A DNA stretch of 64,000 nt from Mesorhizobium sp. LSJC280B00. GTDB taxonomy: Bacteria > Pseudomonadota > Alphaproteobacteria > Rhizobiales > Rhizobiaceae. This document shows, piece after piece, positions 54,908 through 64,000 of this stretch. Where the stretch lies: NCBI RefSeq assembly GCF_000502835.1, contig NZ_AYVL01000008.1, positions 50,321 through 114,320 on the forward strand, written 5' to 3'. How positions within the stretch are numbered: position 1 is the first letter of the stretch; each line of letters starts with the position of its first letter. The notes below the pieces were generated by a model. That model was given only the letters and a program-made list of their open reading frames with translations, was not told the DNA's origin and searched no databases. Made by a program: the position numbers and the translations under genes.

Positions 54908-55115
54908 GATGCAGGACTAGCGTTTCGCTTTCATCGCGGTAAGCACCGGCAACGAAAACCGCTTGCGCCAGCCGGAAGAGATAAGAGCCTGACGATCCCT
55001 CCGGCTGCCCTTCAGGCATGTCGCTTCCCTCGTCCTAGTGGTCGCCGCCTCCGCAATGGCTGGCCGGCCGGCAGTCCATTATGCCGCCGCATTGCCGCAG
55101 CGTACGAGGACTATC

Positions 55116-56693
55116 ATGACCGCCGCCCTTCAGCCCGCCGAACCTGCATTGGCAAACGACCGCGCCCGTCGCGGCGGCCGCGCGGGAAAGCGTGCCGGCG
55201 GATCGGCGGCGTTCGAGCAGCCGCCGTTTCGGCAGTTGAAGAACCCGCTGGCGCCGACCCGGCTGGTTTCCGACGACGAGCTGGAATCTATCCACCTCGC
55301 CTCTCTGCGCGTGCTGCGGGAAATCGGCGTCGACGTGCTGCATGACGAAGCCCGGCGCATCATGAAGGCGCATGGCGCCGATGTCCGCGAAGGCAGCGAG
55401 CGGGTGCGCTTCGACAGTGACATGATCCTGGAACTGGTTGCGCACTGCCCGCCGGAATTCACCATCCACGCCCGCAACCCGGCGCACAACGTGCGCTTCG
55501 GCGGCGATAATCTGATCATCTCGATGATGGCGTCGGCGCCCAATTGCTCCGACGTCGACCGCGGCCGCCGGCCGGGCAACCAGCAGGACTACCGCAACTT
55601 CCTCAAGCTTGCGCAGATGCACAACATATTGAACTGCACGGGCGGCTATCCGGTCGAGCCGATCGACATCCATCCGTCCGTCCGCCACCTTGAATGCATC
55701 CGTGACCTCGCCACGCTGACCGACAAGATGTTCCACATCTATTCGCTCGGCAAGGAGCGCAACGTCGACGGCATCGAGATCACCAGGATCGCACGTGGCA
55801 TCAGCCATGAGCAGTTGCTTGCAGAGCCGTCGGTATTCACCATCATCAACACCAATTCGCCGCTCAAGCTCGACGTGCCGATGATGGAAGGCATCATCCA
55901 GATGTCGAGCAAGGGCCAGGTGGTCATCGTGACGCCGTTCACCCTGTCCGGCGCCATGGCGCCGGTGACGATTGCCGGCGCGCTGGTGCAGCAGAATGCC
56001 GAGGCGCTGTCCGGCATCGCCTTTGCGCAGATGGTGCGCAAGGGCGCGCCTGTCGGCTACGGCGGCTTCACCTCGAACGTCGATATGAAGTCCGGCGCGC
56101 CGGCCTTCGGCACGCCGGAATATATGAAGGCGCAGCTGGTCGGCGGGCAGCTCGCCCGCCGCTACAACATCCCCTACCGCACCTCCAACACCTGCGCCGC
56201 CAACACGGTCGATGCGCAGGCCGCCTATGAAAGCGTGTTCTCACTGTGGGGCGCCATCCAGGGCGGCGGCAATCTGATGATGCATGCGGCCGGCTGGCTG
56301 GAAGGCGGCCTGCGCTGCTCCTACGAGAAGACCATCCTCGACATAGACCTGTTGCAGATGGTCGCCGAGTTCCTGACGCCGCTCGATCTTTCCGAGGAAG
56401 CACTCGGTTTCGACGCCATACAGTCCGTCGGCCCCGGCGGCCATTTCTTCGGCACCCAGCACACGCAGGACCGCTACAAGACCGCGTTCTATGCGCCTAT
56501 TATCTCGGACTGGCGCAATTTCGAGAGTTGGGCGGAGGCCGGGTCGCCGACGGCGCTCGAAAAGGCCAATCGCGTCTGGAAGGAACGGCTGGCCTCCTAT
56601 GAAGAGCCTTACATGGATCCGGCAATCAGGGAGGAGCTCAACGCTTTCGTCGACAAGCGCCGGGCCGAAGGCGGCGCGCCGACCGATTTCTGA
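55116..56693 (+). CDS. MttB-family methyltransferase (non-pyrrolysine trimethylamine methyltransferase homolog)
   Basis: A 525-residue TIM-barrel protein of the MttB superfamily. The region around IMASAPNCSDVDRGRRPGNQ and SLGKERNVDGIEITRIARGI fits. There is no in-frame TAG, so this is a member without pyrrolysine, the group that includes glycine betaine, proline betaine and carnitine methyltransferases. The start at 55116 (MTAALQPAEPAL) has GAGGAC upstream. It is followed by a dimethylglycine-dehydrogenase-like gene, which fits stepwise demethylation of a quaternary amine. The corrinoid partner is not in the window. Substrate unknown. Confidence 0.82.
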   Translation: MTAALQPAEPALANDRARRGGRAGKRAGGSAAFEQPPFRQLKNPLAPTRLVSDDELESIHLASLRVLREIGVDVLHDEARRIMKAHGADVREGSERVRFDSDMILELVAHCPPEFTIHARNPAHNVRFGGDNLIISMMASAPNCSDVDRGRRPGNQQDYRNFLKLAQMHNILNCTGGYPVEPIDIHPSVRHLECIRDLATLTDKMFHIYSLGKERNVDGIEITRIARGISHEQLLAEPSVFTIINTNSPLKLDVPMMEGIIQMSSKGQVVIVTPFTLSGAMAPVTIAGALVQQNAEALSGIAFAQMVRKGAPVGYGGFTSNVDMKSGAPAFGTPEYMKAQLVGGQLARRYNIPYRTSNTCAANTVDAQAAYESVFSLWGAIQGGGNLMMHAAGWLEGGLRCSYEKTILDIDLLQMVAEFLTPLDLSEEALGFDAIQSVGPGGHFFGTQHTQDRYKTAFYAPIISDWRNFESWAEAGSPTALEKANRVWKERLASYEEPYMDPAIREELNAFVDKRRAEGGAPTDF

Positions 56694-56825: not shown

Positions 56826-59423
56826 ATGAAATCTCATGCAAAAGCGGTTGTCATCGGCGGCGGGGTCGTTGGCTGCTCGGTGCTCTATCATCTGGCCAAG
56901 GCTGGCTGGAACGACATCATGCTGATCGAGCGTTCGGAGCTCACTTCCGGCTCGTCCTGGCATGCGGCGGGCGGCTTCCATACGCTGAACGGCGATCCCA
57001 ACGTCGCCAAGCTGCAGGCCTACACGGTGCAGCTTTACAAGGAGATCGAGGAGATTTCCGGCCAATCCTGCTCGCTGCACCTGACCGGCGGCGTGATGAT
57101 GGCTGACACGCCCGAGCGCATGGACTTCTTGCGGCTCGCCCACGCCAAGGGCCGCTATCTCGGCATGGACACCGAACTGATCACGCCGTCCGAAGCCAAG
57201 GCGATGTTCCCGCTGATGGACGAGACGAATTTCGTCGGCGCCATGTGGGATCCAGTCGAGGGTCATCTCGACCCTTCCGGCACCACCCATGCCTATGCCA
57301 AGGCCGCCAGGAAGCTAGGCGCCGAGATCGTACTGCGCAACCGCGTCGTGGAACTGACGCAGGAGGTCGACGGCACCTGGAACGTCGTCACTGAGCAAGG
57401 CACAGTCAAAGCCGAGCATGTGGTTAACTGCGGCGGCCTGTGGGCGCGCGAGATCGGTCGCATGGTCGGCGTCGAACTGCCGGTGCTGGCCATGGAGCAC
57501 ATGTATCTCCTGACCGAGCCGATGCCGGAGGTCGAGGAATTCAACAAGTCGACCGGCCGCGAGATGATTGGCGTGCTCGATTTCAAGGGCGAGATCTATA
57601 CCCGCCAGGAGCGCAACGGCATCCTGCTCGGCACCTATGAAAAGGCCTGCAAGCCGTGGTCGCCGGTCAGCACGCCCTGGGATTTCGGCCACGAGCTGCT
57701 GCAGCCAGACATCGACCGCATCGCGCCGTCGCTCGAGATCGGCTTCAAGCATTTCCCCGGCATCGAGAAGGCCGGCATCAAGCAGATCATCAACGGCCCC
57801 TTCACCTTCGCGCTGGACGGCAACCCGCTGGTCGGCCCGGTGCAGGGCCTGACCAATTTCTGGTGCGCCTGCGCCGTCATGGCCGGCTTCAGCCAGGGCG
57901 GCGGCGTCGGCCTGGCGCTGTCGAACTGGATGGTCCATGGCGACCCCGGCTTCGACGTCTGGGGCATGGACGTTGCGCGCTTCGGCGAATGGGCAACGCT
58001 GCGCTATACCAACGCAAAGGTCCGCGAAAATTATTCGCGCCGCTTCTCCATCCGCTTTCCCAACGAGGAATTACCGGCGGCAAGACCAGCGCAGACGACC
58101 CCGCTTTACGACACCATGCTCGCCAACAACGCCGTCATGGGCGACAGCTGGGGTCTCGAAACCCCGCTCTGGTTCGCGCCGAAAGGCTCGGAGCCGAAGG
58201 ACGTCGTGTCCTTCCACCGCTCCAATGATTTCCGCCCGATCGGCGAGGAAGTGCGCGCCACCCGCGAGAGGGTCGGCGTCACCGAGATCGCCAACTTCGC
58301 CAAATACGAAGTCTCCGGGCCAGGGGCCGAGGACTTCCTCAACCGTCTGATGACCAATCGCATGCCGAAGACCGGCCGCATCGTGCTGACGCCCATGCTG
58401 AACGAGTTCGGCCGGCTGATCGGGGACTTCACCATTGCCAAGGCGGGCCCAAGGGGTGGGGAAGACCGCTTCATGATATGGGGTTCTTCGGCAGCGCAAA
58501 AATACCACATGCGCTGGTTCGAGAAGCATCTGCCGAAGGACGGTCCAAGGGCGTCAGAGGTGCGCATCCACCGCTTCGACCAGACGCTGGTCGGGTTGTC
58601 GATCGCCGGGCCGAAATCCCGCGACCTGCTGCAGAAACTGGTCGATGTCGACATCTCGACCAAGGCCTTCCGCTTCATGGATTTCCGCGAGATGGCGGTC
58701 GGCGGAGCGCCCTGCATGGTCAACCGGATCACCTACACCGGCGACCTCGGCTATGAGATCTGGATGGCGCCTGCCTACCAGCGCCTGGTCTACAAGGCAA
58801 TCAAGGAGGCTGGCGAAGAGTTTGGCCTTGTCGATTTCGGCATGCGGGCTTTGCTCTCGATGCGCCTTGAGAAGAACTTCCCGACCTGGTTCCGCGAGTT
58901 ACGTCCGATCTACGGACCGTTCGAAGGCTCGATGGACCGCTTCATCAAGCTAGAGAAGAACGACTTCATCGGCCGGGAAGCAGCGGCCAAGGAACAGGCA
59001 GAAGGGCCGAAACTGCGCCGTGTCTCCTTCATCGTCGATGCCGCGGATGCAGACGTCATGGGCGACGAGCCGATCTGGGCCAAGGTCGGCGGCAAGGATT
59101 ACGGCACCGTGGAAAAGCCGCATGGCTATGGCGCGCCGCGCTTCGACGCGGGCGGCAAGGAAGTGCGCGGCTCGAACGCCGCCGAAGGCGCGTCTGCCGT
59201 GCGCGGCATTGTCGACGGCGACTGGCGCGTGGTCGGCTGGGTCACCTCCGGCGGCTATGCGCATTATGTCGAGAAGTCGATGGCGCAAGGCTATGTACCG
59301 GCAGCGCTTGCCGAGAACGAGAGCGCCGGGCTGTTCGAGATCGAAATCCTCGGGCACCGGCGTCCCGCACGCATCAATGTCGAGCCGCCCTTCGACCCGA
59401 GCGGCGAAAAGATGAGGACGTAG
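56826..59423 (+). CDS. FAD-dependent dimethylglycine/sarcosine dehydrogenase-like protein with GcvT domain
   Basis: An 865-residue two-domain enzyme. The N-terminal DAO-type FAD domain begins AVVIGGGVVGCSVLYHLAKA, with GSSWHAAGGFHTL and NGPFTFALDGNPLVGPVQGL. The C-terminal half (from about residue 440) is the aminomethyltransferase/folate-binding GcvT-like domain with SGPGAEDFLNRLMTNRMPKT and TYTGDLGYEIWM. Family members oxidatively demethylate N-methylated glycines, passing the methyl carbon to tetrahydrofolate. It follows the MttB gene by 132 bp and shares a probable operon. Confidence 0.87.
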   Translation: MKSHAKAVVIGGGVVGCSVLYHLAKAGWNDIMLIERSELTSGSSWHAAGGFHTLNGDPNVAKLQAYTVQLYKEIEEISGQSCSLHLTGGVMMADTPERMDFLRLAHAKGRYLGMDTELITPSEAKAMFPLMDETNFVGAMWDPVEGHLDPSGTTHAYAKAARKLGAEIVLRNRVVELTQEVDGTWNVVTEQGTVKAEHVVNCGGLWAREIGRMVGVELPVLAMEHMYLLTEPMPEVEEFNKSTGREMIGVLDFKGEIYTRQERNGILLGTYEKACKPWSPVSTPWDFGHELLQPDIDRIAPSLEIGFKHFPGIEKAGIKQIINGPFTFALDGNPLVGPVQGLTNFWCACAVMAGFSQGGGVGLALSNWMVHGDPGFDVWGMDVARFGEWATLRYTNAKVRENYSRRFSIRFPNEELPAARPAQTTPLYDTMLANNAVMGDSWGLETPLWFAPKGSEPKDVVSFHRSNDFRPIGEEVRATRERVGVTEIANFAKYEVSGPGAEDFLNRLMTNRMPKTGRIVLTPMLNEFGRLIGDFTIAKAGPRGGEDRFMIWGSSAAQKYHMRWFEKHLPKDGPRASEVRIHRFDQTLVGLSIAGPKSRDLLQKLVDVDISTKAFRFMDFREMAVGGAPCMVNRITYTGDLGYEIWMAPAYQRLVYKAIKEAGEEFGLVDFGMRALLSMRLEKNFPTWFRELRPIYGPFEGSMDRFIKLEKNDFIGREAAAKEQAEGPKLRRVSFIVDAADADVMGDEPIWAKVGGKDYGTVEKPHGYGAPRFDAGGKEVRGSNAAEGASAVRGIVDGDWRVVGWVTSGGYAHYVEKSMAQGYVPAALAENESAGLFEIEILGHRRPARINVEPPFDPSGEKMRT

Positions 59424-59511: not shown

Positions 59512-61089
59512 TTGAAGTACAATCTGAGATGGGCCGAGTGGCTGGCCGAGGGACGGATCGGCCCCTTCCCGGCGGCGATCGTCATGGTCGCGGCTTATTT
59601 TGCCTTGCAGACCATCATACTGTCCCTGTTGAGCTCTTGGGCGGGAACCGGCGTCGGCATCGATGATGCGGAGCAACTGATCTATGTTCCGCATCTCTGG
59701 GCTGGATATGGCGGCTCGCAACCACCTCTCTACACCTGGATCAACTGGCTGGCCGCGCATGTTTTCGGCACCAGTATCTTCACGCTGAAGCTCGTCAAAT
59801 ACTCCGTGCTGTTCCTTGCCGCCTGCAGCGTGTTCGCCGCCATGCGGCGGTTCGGCTACACCAAGGCGACAGCGGCGGCGGCCATGTTCGGCCTGTTTAC
59901 GATCCCGCAGATCGTCTGGGAATCGCAGCGCGCCTTGTCGCATTCCGTCGCCGTCGTCGGCTTCTGCTCGCTGCTCCTGCTGGCCATGGCCTATCTTCTC
60001 GAGCGGCGAAGCATGATCGCCTATGCGGCGTTTGGCCTGGCTACCGCGGCGGCAATTCTTGCCAAATATAATGATGTCTTCCTCGTGGTGGCCCTTGTTG
60101 CGGCCGTGCTGTCGCTGCGCGAATGGCGCGGCGCGATCCTCGATCCGAAGTTCGCCATCAGCATAGCAGTCGCGATATTGGTGCTGGCGCCAACCACCTA
60201 TTGGAGCCTCATGCATCCCGCCGATTTATTGTCGAGAGGCGAGAAGTTCGGAATAGACGCGCAACAAGGGCGCGTGGCGGCGGCCTTTGTCGGCGCCGGC
60301 AAGTTTATCATGGGCACCTTCAATTTCGCGGTCTTGCCCGTTCTCGTTTCCGCCCTCACTTTCTGGCTGGCGAAGTTCCGTTTCTCCGAGCGGCACCCGA
60401 AAGGTCCGGCAAGGGAAATTCTGTTGTGGCGTACTTTGGCGCTCGGCTTGGCCATGCTGGCAATACTTGTACTTGCCACCGGCGTGACGGTGGTCAAGGA
60501 CCGCTGGCTGCTGCCCGTCCTGTTCATCTTGCCGCTGGCCATCGTCGCTACAATGGAACGGCTGGCGCCGCGGGGCAGGAATGCGCAGCTTCTGGTGATC
60601 GCGGCTGGAGCGATCATCGCCGTGCTGCTCGCGCCCGCCACCTGGTACGTCCAGATAAACGGGACCAGTGGCCTCTCGCGGATGATCCGCGTGGATTACC
60701 CCGCCCTCTATCGCCAGCTGACTGCGGACGGACCGGTCAAAACCGCAATATCTGATGGTGCATGGGTCGGAAACCTGCGGTTGGTCGACGAAAAACTGGT
60801 CGCACTTGACCAGGAAGTGCCTAATTTCGAAACGCTGATGCAGGAGCCAGCCGTACTCGTCTGGCTTGACCGAGACGATCCGCGGCCGGTCATTTTGGAG
60901 CAGCTCAAAGCGGCCGGCTATGAGCCGGACGGCCAACCACGGCAAATGATGGTTCCGCTGTTGCGCGGCACCGGCAAGTCCGCCCGGGCCGGCGCCTATG
61001 TAAGATTGAAGAGAATGGCGGTGGGAGAAGCCACGGCGCCTAAGGAAGGCGTTAGCGGAGGAGCCGAGGGTGGACAGGAACCCGACTGA
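59512..61089 (+). CDS. Glycosyltransferase family 39 (ArnT/PMT-like) membrane protein
   Basis: A 525-residue polytopic protein with about eleven membrane segments. The first periplasmic loop has GTGVGIDDAEQLIYVPHLWA with the catalytic-type DD acid pair, then QPPLYTWINWL. This matches lipid-linked-sugar glycosyltransferases of the GT39/ArnT type. The start is TTG at 59512 behind AAGGGCGATGAG. It overlaps the following gene by 20 bases, indicating coupling. Acceptor unknown (a lipid A, polysaccharide or protein target). Confidence 0.8.
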   Translation: MKYNLRWAEWLAEGRIGPFPAAIVMVAAYFALQTIILSLLSSWAGTGVGIDDAEQLIYVPHLWAGYGGSQPPLYTWINWLAAHVFGTSIFTLKLVKYSVLFLAACSVFAAMRRFGYTKATAAAAMFGLFTIPQIVWESQRALSHSVAVVGFCSLLLLAMAYLLERRSMIAYAAFGLATAAAILAKYNDVFLVVALVAAVLSLREWRGAILDPKFAISIAVAILVLAPTTYWSLMHPADLLSRGEKFGIDAQQGRVAAAFVGAGKFIMGTFNFAVLPVLVSALTFWLAKFRFSERHPKGPAREILLWRTLALGLAMLAILVLATGVTVVKDRWLLPVLFILPLAIVATMERLAPRGRNAQLLVIAAGAIIAVLLAPATWYVQINGTSGLSRMIRVDYPALYRQLTADGPVKTAISDGAWVGNLRLVDEKLVALDQEVPNFETLMQEPAVLVWLDRDDPRPVILEQLKAAGYEPDGQPRQMMVPLLRGTGKSARAGAYVRLKRMAVGEATAPKEGVSGGAEGGQEPD

Positions 61090-62425
61090 CCGGCCCCGTC
61101 ATCACCGCAAGATCATGCCGTTCGAGCCCGACGGCTCGAATGATGCGCTGCACAAAAAATCGCGGCTGAAGGCCGCTGAACTCAACCAGCATGCGCTGGG
61201 CTATGGAGCGCTGGCGGAAGCCGAATGGCAGGCGGCGGGCATTGCTGCTCCTAACCTGCCCGCCATGCGCCGATACCGGCTCGAGCGCATCCGCGCCGAG
61301 CTGAAGCGCCGCGACTATGCGGGAGCCCTGCTCTACGATCCGGTCAACATCCGCTATGCCACCGACGCAACCAACATGCAGCTCTGGGTCGCACACAATC
61401 GGACCAGGCATTGTTTCGTTGCCACCGATGGCCCGGTGGTGCTGTTCGACTATTTCTCCTGCGAGCACCTTTCCGATCATTCCGGCGTCGTCGACGAGGT
61501 GCGGCCGGCGGTGTCGTGGGCTTATCTGTACAGCGGCGAGCTGACCGGAAAAGTCCGCCGCTGGGCAGCCGGCATCGCCGACCTGGTATTGGAACATGGC
61601 GGCGGCAATCGCCGTATCGCCGTCGACCATATCAATCCCGAGGGCATCGAAGAGCTCGCCCGTCTCGGCATCTCGACCGGCAATGGCGAGGCGGTGATGG
61701 AAAATGCGCGGCTGATAAAATCACCCGACGAGATCCTTGCCATGCGCCGGGCGATCGCCGCTTGCGAGGCGGCAATGGGCGAGATGGAGAAGGCGCTGAG
61801 GCCTGGCATCTCCGAGAACGAATTGTGGGCCGAACTCCATCGCGGCAACATCGCGCGCGGCGGCGAATGGATCGAAACCCGGCTCCTGTCGTCGGGTCCG
61901 CGCACCAATCCATGGTTCCAGGAGTGTTCGTCGCGGACGATCGAGGCCGGCGAGCTCGTCGCTTTCGACACCGACCTGATCGGTCCTTACGGCTTCTGCG
62001 CCGACCTTTCGCGCACCTGGCTTTGCGGTGACGCGCCGCCGTCGCATGAGCAGCGCGACCTGTTCCGCATCGCCGCCGACCAGATCGCCCACAACACGGA
62101 GCTGATGCGGTCGGGCATATCGTTCCGCGACCTCGTCGAGGGCTCGTCAGTGCCACCGGGAGACTGCTTCCCGGCCCGTTACGGGGTGCTCTATCACGGC
62201 GTCGGCCTTGCCGACGAATACCCGACTTTGCCGCATGCTAGCGACTGGACCGACGACACACCGGACGGAGTGCTCGAACCTGGCATGGTGCTGTGCGTCG
62301 AGAGCTATATCGGTCGGCTTGGCGGCTACGAAGGCGTCAAGATCGAAGAACAGATCCTGATCACTGAAACCGGCAACGAGAAGCTTTCGACCTACCCGCT
62401 CGACAATCGGCTGCTTGGCGGCTGA
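61070..62425 (+). CDS. M24-family protein closely resembling DMSP lyase DddP
   Basis: A 451-residue creatinase/aminopeptidase-P-fold protein. The stretch GGEWIETRLLSSGPRTNPWF and the following QEC are near identical to my memory of DddP. Metal ligands appear at Asp300, Asp302, Asp312, His376, Glu411 and Glu426, and Asp382 sits in HGVGLADE where the catalytic base Asp of DddP is reported; spacing matches DddP with a constant offset. DddP cleaves DMSP to acrylate plus dimethyl sulfide. The start is GTG at 61070 behind GGAGGAG. Overlaps the GT39 gene. It could still be a dipeptidase-like relative. Confidence 0.75.
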   Translation: MDRNPTDRPRHHRKIMPFEPDGSNDALHKKSRLKAAELNQHALGYGALAEAEWQAAGIAAPNLPAMRRYRLERIRAELKRRDYAGALLYDPVNIRYATDATNMQLWVAHNRTRHCFVATDGPVVLFDYFSCEHLSDHSGVVDEVRPAVSWAYLYSGELTGKVRRWAAGIADLVLEHGGGNRRIAVDHINPEGIEELARLGISTGNGEAVMENARLIKSPDEILAMRRAIAACEAAMGEMEKALRPGISENELWAELHRGNIARGGEWIETRLLSSGPRTNPWFQECSSRTIEAGELVAFDTDLIGPYGFCADLSRTWLCGDAPPSHEQRDLFRIAADQIAHNTELMRSGISFRDLVEGSSVPPGDCFPARYGVLYHGVGLADEYPTLPHASDWTDDTPDGVLEPGMVLCVESYIGRLGGYEGVKIEEQILITETGNEKLSTYPLDNRLLGG

Positions 62426-62434
62426 GCGACGCTA

Positions 62435-62533
62435 GCATGTCGCGCAAAAGTGTGCAGCGGCTTTGCGATAACGACATGCATAAAACAAGAATCTAAAGCG
62501 CGTCGCATGAGGCCGACCGAACGCGACGCGCTT
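62435..62533. repeat. Dispersed double-palindrome repeat, copy 2
   Basis: This is the second copy of the element at 6957-7050, sharing most bases by eye (GCATGTCGCGCAAAA, CGACATGCAT, AAAACAAGAA, CTAAAGCGCGTCGC, CGAACGCGA). It lies between convergent genes and ends at the stop codon of the PhnD-like gene. Confidence 0.75.
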
Positions 62534-63333
62534 TACGTGAGCGCTGCGATCGCCTCGCGCATCGCGGCGACGATCGTTTCCGGCGTCGTCCTGGCGGTGA
62601 TGAACGGCAAGCCTTTGCGCCGCCTTGTCCAGCCGACGACCGTCACCTTCTGCGCCGCCGGCTCGAAACGCTGCGCCAGCGCCCAGCTCTCGCAATCGAT
62701 CGCCGCGACGTCCGCCCTGCCCTCGGCAACGGCAACGATCGAAGCACGGTGCCCACAGCTTTCGCTCAGCGCGGAAAAGATATCCAAACTCTCGCCCAAT
62801 GCTTGCAGGTCGCGGGCTGGCGCGATGATGCCCGACATGGAATCGAGGCTGTTGAAGGTGAAGCGCTTGCTGCGAAGCTGATCGAGCGGAATGACGGCAC
62901 CGCCGTCGGCCGGCGCCCTTGCCGGCGGTGCCTCGCCCGCCCTCATGACGATGGCGCTCGAATAGAGTTCGCCCTGTCCACCCTCGAAGGCGTCGTAACG
63001 CGGCTGGCCGACGAGCTGGACACGCTGCGACAGGCCGAGTTCCATCGGTCCCCAGCAGGTTTGCGCAAAGAGCAGCGCCGGATGCAGCCAGAGCTGGTGA
63101 AAATCCAGTTCGTCCGGCGGCAATGTCGCCGGATCGGGCGCGATGGGTTTTCCCTGATCATCGCGAATACCGCCAGGCACGGGGGGCAAATCGCCGGTGC
63201 GGCGGATGATCGTCTCCGGCGCATCGATGCCTTTTTGTCTGAAAGCATCGCGCAGCCGCGCCCATTGCGCGTCGACATCGTCCCGCGCTTCCGGCCAGTC
63301 GTACATCGGCAAAGCCGCAATGAATTCGCTCAT
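62533..63333 (-). CDS. PhnD-like phosphate/phosphonate-type binding protein without signal peptide
   Basis: A 266-residue protein of the PhnD/SsuA-like type II periplasmic-binding fold. It opens IAALPMYDWPEARDDVDAQW, with RFTFNSLDSMSGIIAPARDL and DVAAIDCESWALAQRF typical of PhnD-like proteins. There is no signal peptide, so it may be cytoplasmic and act as a sensor or enzyme-like domain rather than a transport component. No permease or ATPase is adjacent. The ligand is unknown. Confidence 0.7.
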   Translation of the reverse strand: MSEFIAALPMYDWPEARDDVDAQWARLRDAFRQKGIDAPETIIRRTGDLPPVPGGIRDDQGKPIAPDPATLPPDELDFHQLWLHPALLFAQTCWGPMELGLSQRVQLVGQPRYDAFEGGQGELYSSAIVMRAGEAPPARAPADGGAVIPLDQLRSKRFTFNSLDSMSGIIAPARDLQALGESLDIFSALSESCGHRASIVAVAEGRADVAAIDCESWALAQRFEPAAQKVTVVGWTRRRKGLPFITARTTPETIVAAMREAIAALT

Positions 63334-63416
63334 GCCGGGATTTGACCGTTATGCGGGGAAATTGACAAGGTCAGGAAAGCGTCGTCCGCGCGGCACCGCC
63401 TGCAACAACGCAAGAA

Positions 63417-64000
63417 TCATTCTTTCGGCGGCTCGGCGGGTACCGGTGCGCTGCCAAGCCCATTGAGGCTGCGTGCCCTGACGCGCGGCTTGAATGCGCG
63501 TCCTGGTTCCGGCATGCGCCGCAGCACGGGATGGACGACCGGCTCCTTCGCCTTGAAGGCATAGGCCTTGAGCAGCGCGAAATAGTTCGGATAGGCGTAG
63601 CCATTGTTCATCCGCAGCCATTCGTCACGGCGGTCGCGAAACACCTTCGGCAGCCTGTACCAGGCCACCGTCGGGCTCTTGTGATGGACGAAATGCAGAT
63701 TGTTGTTGAGGAACAGGAAGGACAGCGGCGAGCGCTCGACGATGATCGTGCGGCCTTCCGGATGTTCAGACCATTGGTGCTCGGCGTAGGTGCGGATCGA
63801 AATCAGCGATTGTCCCAGCCATACCGGCACCAGAACGTAAAGCCACAACGGCATGCCGAAGCCGAACTGCACGATGGGCAGCACCACGACGAGGCCGATC
63901 GCATGCAGCAGCCATGCCTTGCGGATGGAATTGTCGCCCGCGGCAACCTGCCTGGCGTCGTCGATGAAAAAGCCGATGCAGGAAAGCCACGGGCCTAGCA
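63417..64000 (-). CDS. Fatty acid desaturase (C-terminal part; runs off right edge)
   Basis: 194 residues of a membrane desaturase. The visible part holds two hydrophobic blocks (AWLLHAIGLVVVLPIVQFGF and LWLYVLVPVWLGQSLI). Histidine boxes include RTYAEHQW and NLHFVHHKSP, which bind the diiron centre. The N-terminal box lies beyond the window. It would introduce a double bond into membrane acyl chains. The reading frame is open to base 63998 with clear family character upstream of the internal GTG at 63887, so the gene extends past the window. Confidence 0.82.
   Translation of the reverse strand, partial: LGPWLSCIGFFIDDARQVAAGDNSIRKAWLLHAIGLVVVLPIVQFGFGMPLWLYVLVPVWLGQSLISIRTYAEHQWSEHPEGRTIIVERSPLSFLFLNNNLHFVHHKSPTVAWYRLPKVFRDRRDEWLRMNNGYAYPNYFALLKAYAFKAKEPVVHPVLRRMPEPGRAFKPRVRARSLNGLGSAPVPAEPPKE

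Follow-up and report, generated by a model that had tools for sequence, protein, structure and literature searches.

The window (the whole 64,000-nucleotide stretch of DNA analyzed here) carries a dddP-like gene as the last of a run, where it is preceded in order by mttB, a dimethylglycine-dehydrogenase-like FAD/GcvT gene and a glycosyltransferase-like gene (Table 1). The reading frame proposed for it earlier, 61070–62425, was found to be complete, with a GTG start, 451 codons for amino acids and no internal stop, and its product contains the Pfam domains Creatinase_N and Peptidase_M24. The GTG start is supported by orthologues, in which a GRHRKIxPF-like stretch is conserved in frame ahead of the ATG at 61115; some of them lack that Met. 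A missing DddP N-terminal motif, suggested by an ATG-based alignment, was dropped as a difference because RKIMP lies in frame upstream. The description of the source as a soil-type genome agrees with Mesorhizobium, as the best named match (97%) was a Mesorhizobium MAG, named loci being the best 80 of 587 confirmed stretches.

Table 1. Genes and sequence features around the dddP-like gene (window coordinates).
Feature	Position	Strand	Remarks
MttB-family (MtgB-like) methyltransferase	55119..56693	+	PF06253, 661 bits; start codon chosen by us inside ORF 55038-56693
FAD/GcvT fusion	56826..59423	+	closest solved relatives are dimethylglycine dehydrogenases, 572.3 bits
PMT_2 glycosyltransferase-like gene	59512..61089	+	between FAD/GcvT and dddP-like gene in only some relatives
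dddP-like CDS, 451 aa; M24-fold DddP-superfamily enzyme of DddP sister clade	61070..62425	+	GTG start; alternative in-frame ATG at 61115
RKIMP N-terminal motif codons, residues 13-17	61106..61120	+	counterpart of RKIDP in DddP
Active-site codon stretch (D300, D302, D312, Y371, H376, D382, E411, E426)	61967..62347	+	from alignment to RlDddP numbering
PhnD-like protein, PF12974	62533..63333	-	convergent; recurrent clade neighbour
FA_desaturase-family gene, cut by window end	63417..64000	-	convergent; whole gene 340 aa, L157:1738-2760; recurrent neighbour

The window MttB scored 319.8 bits to the glycine betaine methyltransferase 9yce and is one of five MttB in its genome. A second one lies past the window end (C8:114320) on the same contig, at C8:121477-122973, and is followed by a gene for a corrinoid (B12-binding) protein at C8:123648-123977. 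The latter is 9.3 kb past the window end and outside the run, and its product scored 211.6 bits to the MtgC model (cut-off 370). The stretch from the FA desaturase to the second MttB contains genes for an ECF-type sigma factor and for a VWA/YfbK_C protein, on the same strand (L157:5073-7756). The PMT_2 gene has 46–49% identity in several relatives, 95% in one (L040), and is absent in others; it is probably not part of the function. No match to the PhnD-like protein was found among PDB sequences. When plasmid DNA was searched with the run, 320 records matched and none covered 80% of it.

Seven metal and catalytic residues named in the original prediction, D300, D302, D312, H376, D382, E411 and E426, were all found at these positions. 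In the alignment they correspond to D295, D297, D307, H371, D377, E406 and E421 of RlDddP, i.e. to the six metal ligands of DddP and Asp377, and Y371 corresponds to Tyr366, the second proposed active-site residue (roles as given in the available part of PMC4108388). The full set was present in 85 of 88 alignment rows, the remaining three having Gly, Gly and Val at Asp377. All six ligands together with Tyr366 and Asp377 occurred in 31/31 rows of the DddP clade and in 85/85 rows of the clade that holds the window protein (the window clade); among the other superfamily rows (n = 58) the ligands were kept in 58, Tyr366 in 57 and Asp377 in 55. As the set is common to nearly the whole superfamily it does not identify a DMSP lyase, and we rejected the residues as proof of that activity. 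The N-terminus matched [RKP]KIxP in 23/29 DddP-clade, 76/85 window-clade and 5/58 other rows. Trp residues at RlDddP positions 95, 248, 262 and 277 were present in every row of the DddP and window clades; in DddP, Trp and Tyr bind sulfur, the Trp being given without a number (PMC5395565, in the part available). Trp20 as a candidate substrate-binding residue was dropped, as the aligned N-termini did not bear it out.

The AlphaFold2 model of the window protein (mean pLDDT 88.0) matched RlDddP (4rzy_A) with Z 48.1 and rmsd 1.6 over 414 residues, as compared to Z 33.4 for the best prolidase, 5giu; creatinase, DoeA and prolidases were the next structural matches (Z about 30–33). D382 aligns with a His of prolidase 3q6d, the catalytic His after the HGxG motif, and this Asp-for-His exchange has been linked to lost peptidase activity (PMC5395565, in part). 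Peptidase activity of the window protein is therefore unlikely, and the residues and the predicted fold make a DddP-like chemistry plausible.

Sequence scores agreed with the predicted fold. A phmmer search of the PDB gave RlDddP (372.6 bits; E 2.4e-110 over window residues 43–450) and RdDddP (351.9 bits), followed by prolidase 3q6d with 64.2 bits. The score to the NCBIfam equivalog model for DddP (NF043017) was 472.5 bits, below the cut-off of 600. In a careful tree of 79 rows, the DddP clade (29 rows, bootstrap/SH-aLRT 100/100) contained both solved DddPs and excluded the window protein, which fell in a clade of 20 rows (98/92) from Mesorhizobium, Aminobacter, Kiloniella, Ahrensia, Roseibium/Labrenzia and several MAGs. 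The node joining both clades was weak (85/54), and the clades were likewise apart in a first, prolidase-rooted tree; the trees were built without the lyases proven in fungi, Oceanimonas and SAR116. The protein is unlikely to be an M24 peptidase and its nearest relative is DddP; it is placed in the DddP superfamily as a member of a separate sister clade to DddP. Of the original prediction of a DddP-like DMSP lyase, the likeness holds for sequence, predicted fold, Asp for His and the RKIxP-type N-terminus; the DMSP lyase part is weakened by the score under the NCBIfam cut-off, the demethylation neighbours and the tree, which puts the protein outside the DddP clade, yet not with the peptidases that had been named as the contrary outcome.

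Among 37 genomes of the same genus, 34 had an orthologue with at least 460 bits to the DddP model; G013 and G024 had no match, and G007 (86% complete) had a 105-bit fragment besides a 315-bit paralogue. In the whole search of relatives (61 genomes) only G020, of the same genus, exceeded the DddP cut-off (610.3 bits), and it also has a 464-bit orthologue, i.e. it holds both the DddP-clade and the window-clade type. Across the class, 12 of 385 genomes had a protein over the cut-off and 78 a superfamily member at E 1e-60. The genome of the window carries a second superfamily gene (L002/L146, G000:C22:318-1598) with 40% identity to the window protein and Gly at the catalytic Asp. The ORF after it resembles isochorismatase, a naming by comparison with S. 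meliloti pSymA, and paralogues of this type occur in most genomes of the genus.

An M24-type C–N hydrolase, in the style of creatinase, ectoine hydrolase or prolidase, might free a methylated amino acid that MttB and the DMGDH-like enzyme would then demethylate. The M24 fold, the structural matches next after DddP, and the isochorismatase-family genes that follow both the C22 paralogue and the S. meliloti pSymA member fit such a role. The isochorismatase family includes N-carbamoylsarcosine amidase. However, Gly takes the place of the Asp in the members linked to isochorismatase, unlike in the window protein, which has Asp in place of the peptidase His, and no clade row lacks the DddP Tyr. RlDddP was, moreover, without Val-Pro activity (PMC5395565, in part), and we regard a C–N hydrolase as unlikely.

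Gene neighbourhoods were compared by counting genes within 8 kb, with single-query searches that can miss divergent genes. At loci of the close type (74% identity or more, Mesorhizobium/Aminobacter-type) we found MttB in 59/60, FAD/GcvT in 60/60, PhnD in 59/60 and FA desaturase in 55/60. MttB and FAD/GcvT occurred together in 59 of the 60, and the lone locus lacking MttB, L193, has less than 5 kb of contig upstream. In the 17 same-genus loci MttB, FAD/GcvT and the dddP-like gene were in that order on one strand without exception. More distant members of the window clade (n = 24) had MttB in 14, FAD/GcvT in 12, PhnD in 16, FA desaturase in 14 and a corrinoid gene in 3. Four of these 24 (L130, L131, L133 and L137), none with MttB, belong to the clade by FastTree only (local support 0.85), and the careful tree places the two that it includes, L130 and L137, outside. 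MttB was absent within 8 kb in 10 of the 24; five of the ten are on contigs shorter than 13.3 kb, but not L130, L131, L133, L137 and L218. The PhnD-like and FA_desaturase genes (window 62533-64000, L157:854-2760) are found next to the dddP-like gene in other families too.

The corresponding counts in the class set were 1/22 for MttB and 3/22 for FAD/GcvT in the DddP clade, and 12/36 and 11/36 in the rest. Control stretches of 17–19 kb, taken from the same genomes at a distance of at least 38 kb and ten of them from the genus of the window, had MttB in 0/39, FAD/GcvT in 1/39, corrinoid in 0/39 and FA desaturase in 1/39. Fisher values of 5e-8 and 5e-5 are a guide only, as relatives are not independent. 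The order MttB, FAD/GcvT, dddP-like is kept in Ahrensia, Roseibium, Labrenzia and Afifellaceae at 58–62% identity, and the association recurs at 58–63% identity, also in different gene orders and on different strands. Possibly, the dddP-like gene is a bystander of a demethylation operon with an unrelated role, and the glycosyltransferase-like gene does show that unrelated genes enter the run. However, an association that recurs at this divergence and in such varied arrangements, as compared to no MttB in the controls, makes a bystander very unlikely.

Other branches of the superfamily have related neighbours. In other DEMETHYLASES, named plasmid members adjoin Rieske oxygenase and reductase genes in Rhizobium, Caballeronia and Paraburkholderia, and in NGR234, where the region is without annotation, Rieske genes lie beside the member by similarity. 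The Rhizobium loci add proline racemase or 4-hydroxyproline epimerase and a glycine betaine/proline transporter. In a proline/betaine region on pC of Rhizobium etli CIAT 652 (L150:6500-10155), a superfamily gene annotated as proline dipeptidase comes right after those for a Rieske oxygenase and a ferredoxin reductase. A Pseudomonas MPC6 locus has a ring-hydroxylating oxygenase and BCCT transporters, the S. meliloti pSymA member (Gly at Asp377) lies with MttB, isochorismatase and a gene for glycine betaine substrate binding, and a Parasedimentitalea locus has MttB, an FAD oxidoreductase and sarcosine oxidase. Beside the DddP-clade genes named dddP by PGAP in Oceanisphaera and Paracoccus yeei, none of the sought neighbours was found. 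The DddP-clade gene of G020 (L057:4794-10308), which is over the curated cut-off, has a corrinoid gene 116 bp away and MttB 2.6 kb away, so neighbours alone do not mark a function other than that of DddP. The G020 corrinoid gene is 97% identical to that of the window genome, and other ORFs of this locus resemble, by eye, the DapA and MR/MLE families.

A physiological DMSP (or DMSOP) lyase, with neighbours that handle other methylated compounds or DMSP itself, has to be weighed against this background. Residues and predicted fold are as in RlDddP, the RKIxP-type N-terminus is shared mainly with the DddP clade, and a DddP from Fusarium is reported to be active although only 32% identical to RdDddP (PMC4108388, in part), the window protein being nearer with 42%. 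The accessible text of PMC7039863 predicts dddP in Mesorhizobium from sediment metagenomes and lists the genus among the main carriers in sediment. But the model score, the position outside the DddP clade and the conserved MttB and DMGDH-like neighbours argue against this role, as does the only acuI-type (TIGR02823) match over cut-off, which sits on another contig. We find a physiological DMSP lyase rather unlikely; DMSP activity is possible, but the protein is probably not mainly a DMSP lyase.

Taken together, the reading we tentatively favor, at a little under even chances, is an M24-fold two-metal enzyme that cleaves an onium carboxylate (betaine-type or its product) within an MttB/corrinoid and DMGDH-like FAD/folate demethylation pathway. 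By analogy with DddP, the carboxylate of the substrate would be bound by the metals and its onium head by Y371 together with a conserved Trp. D382 would abstract the proton adjacent to the carboxylate, and the methylated head would be lost by beta-elimination. The methyl groups would be removed in the same pathway, by the MttB/corrinoid system and the dimethylglycine-dehydrogenase-like FAD/folate enzyme. The identity of the metals, a dimer, the elimination chemistry and an N-onium compound rather than DMSP as main substrate are what we infer, and since glycine betaine demethylation needs no lyase the proposed reaction is a guess. Against an onium enzyme of this kind stand the aligned catalytic residues, a complete DddP-type set with which DMSP cleavage is possible, the ten distant loci lacking MttB within 8 kb, the position of the corrinoid gene outside the run and its score under the MtgC cut-off, the MttB and corrinoid neighbours of the DddP-clade gene of G020, the reported activity of the Fusarium DddP, and the PhnD-like and FA_desaturase neighbours, which have no place in it.

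In most main branches of the tree other than the DddP clade, a member has MttB, FAD/GcvT or Rieske genes next to it, which is in keeping with an N-onium origin of DddP, although the root is uncertain. The superfamily may have begun as betaine (N-onium) enzymes tied to MttB/corrinoid and DMGDH-like or Rieske demethylation, with marine DddP a later offshoot that switched its substrates from N-onium to S-onium compounds and did not come directly from peptidases. The window gene would then be a living ammonium-betaine lyase of the older kind; we consider this scenario possible, although on balance doubtful.

The distinction matters for surveys, as dddP accounts for some 65% of all ddd genes in the Tara data (PMC10686828, in part). 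Published E-value cut-offs are 1e-30 (PMC8520302, which adds a tree and a residue check) and 1e-70 (PMC5395565, in part); a tree is also added in PMC7039863 (same part). An HMM of nine Roseobacter-type DddPs, with search size set to 1e6, gave E <1e-70 for all 165 other rows (22/22 DddP-clade, 85/85 window-clade and 58/58 of the rest). Neither cut-offs of that order nor the key residues separate DddP from the window clade. Soil and sediment counts of DMS potential may include betaine enzymes, and it would be premature to list the window gene as a DMS gene on its sequence alone. With the window clade the origin of DddP becomes open to testing, and corrinoid-linked demethylation in rhizobia would gain a new component. 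In a literature search that left most subscription journals outside its scope, no link was found between M24 proteins of the DddP-like kind and MttB or betaine operons; three papers contain both "dddp" and "trimethylamine methyltransferase".

Compared with known systems, the window protein is most like DddP (RlDddP 4rzy/4s00/4s01; RdDddP 4b28) in fold (Z about 48), six metal ligands, Tyr366, Asp377 and RKIxP-type N-terminus, and differs by its 42–44% identity, score below the family cut-off, separate clade and demethylation neighbours. M24B prolidases, creatinase and the ectoine hydrolase DoeA share the two-domain pita-bread fold, but score 64 bits or less by phmmer, and the window protein has Asp for the prolidase His and an extra N-terminal extension. 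The locus resembles the MtgB/MtgC corrinoid system of glycine betaine demethylation (PMC12478193, in the part available), in that the window contig has MttB-family and corrinoid proteins and a DMGDH-like enzyme. According to the same part of that paper, MtgC and MtgD are essential for this demethylation in aerobic Ruegeria, and extra pfam06253 copies are suggested to serve other methylated compounds. The words "dddp" and "peptidase" were not found in the main text of that paper. The window MttB may have another substrate than MtgB, and the M24-fold member is an extra component at the window locus as compared to the MtgB/MtgC system.
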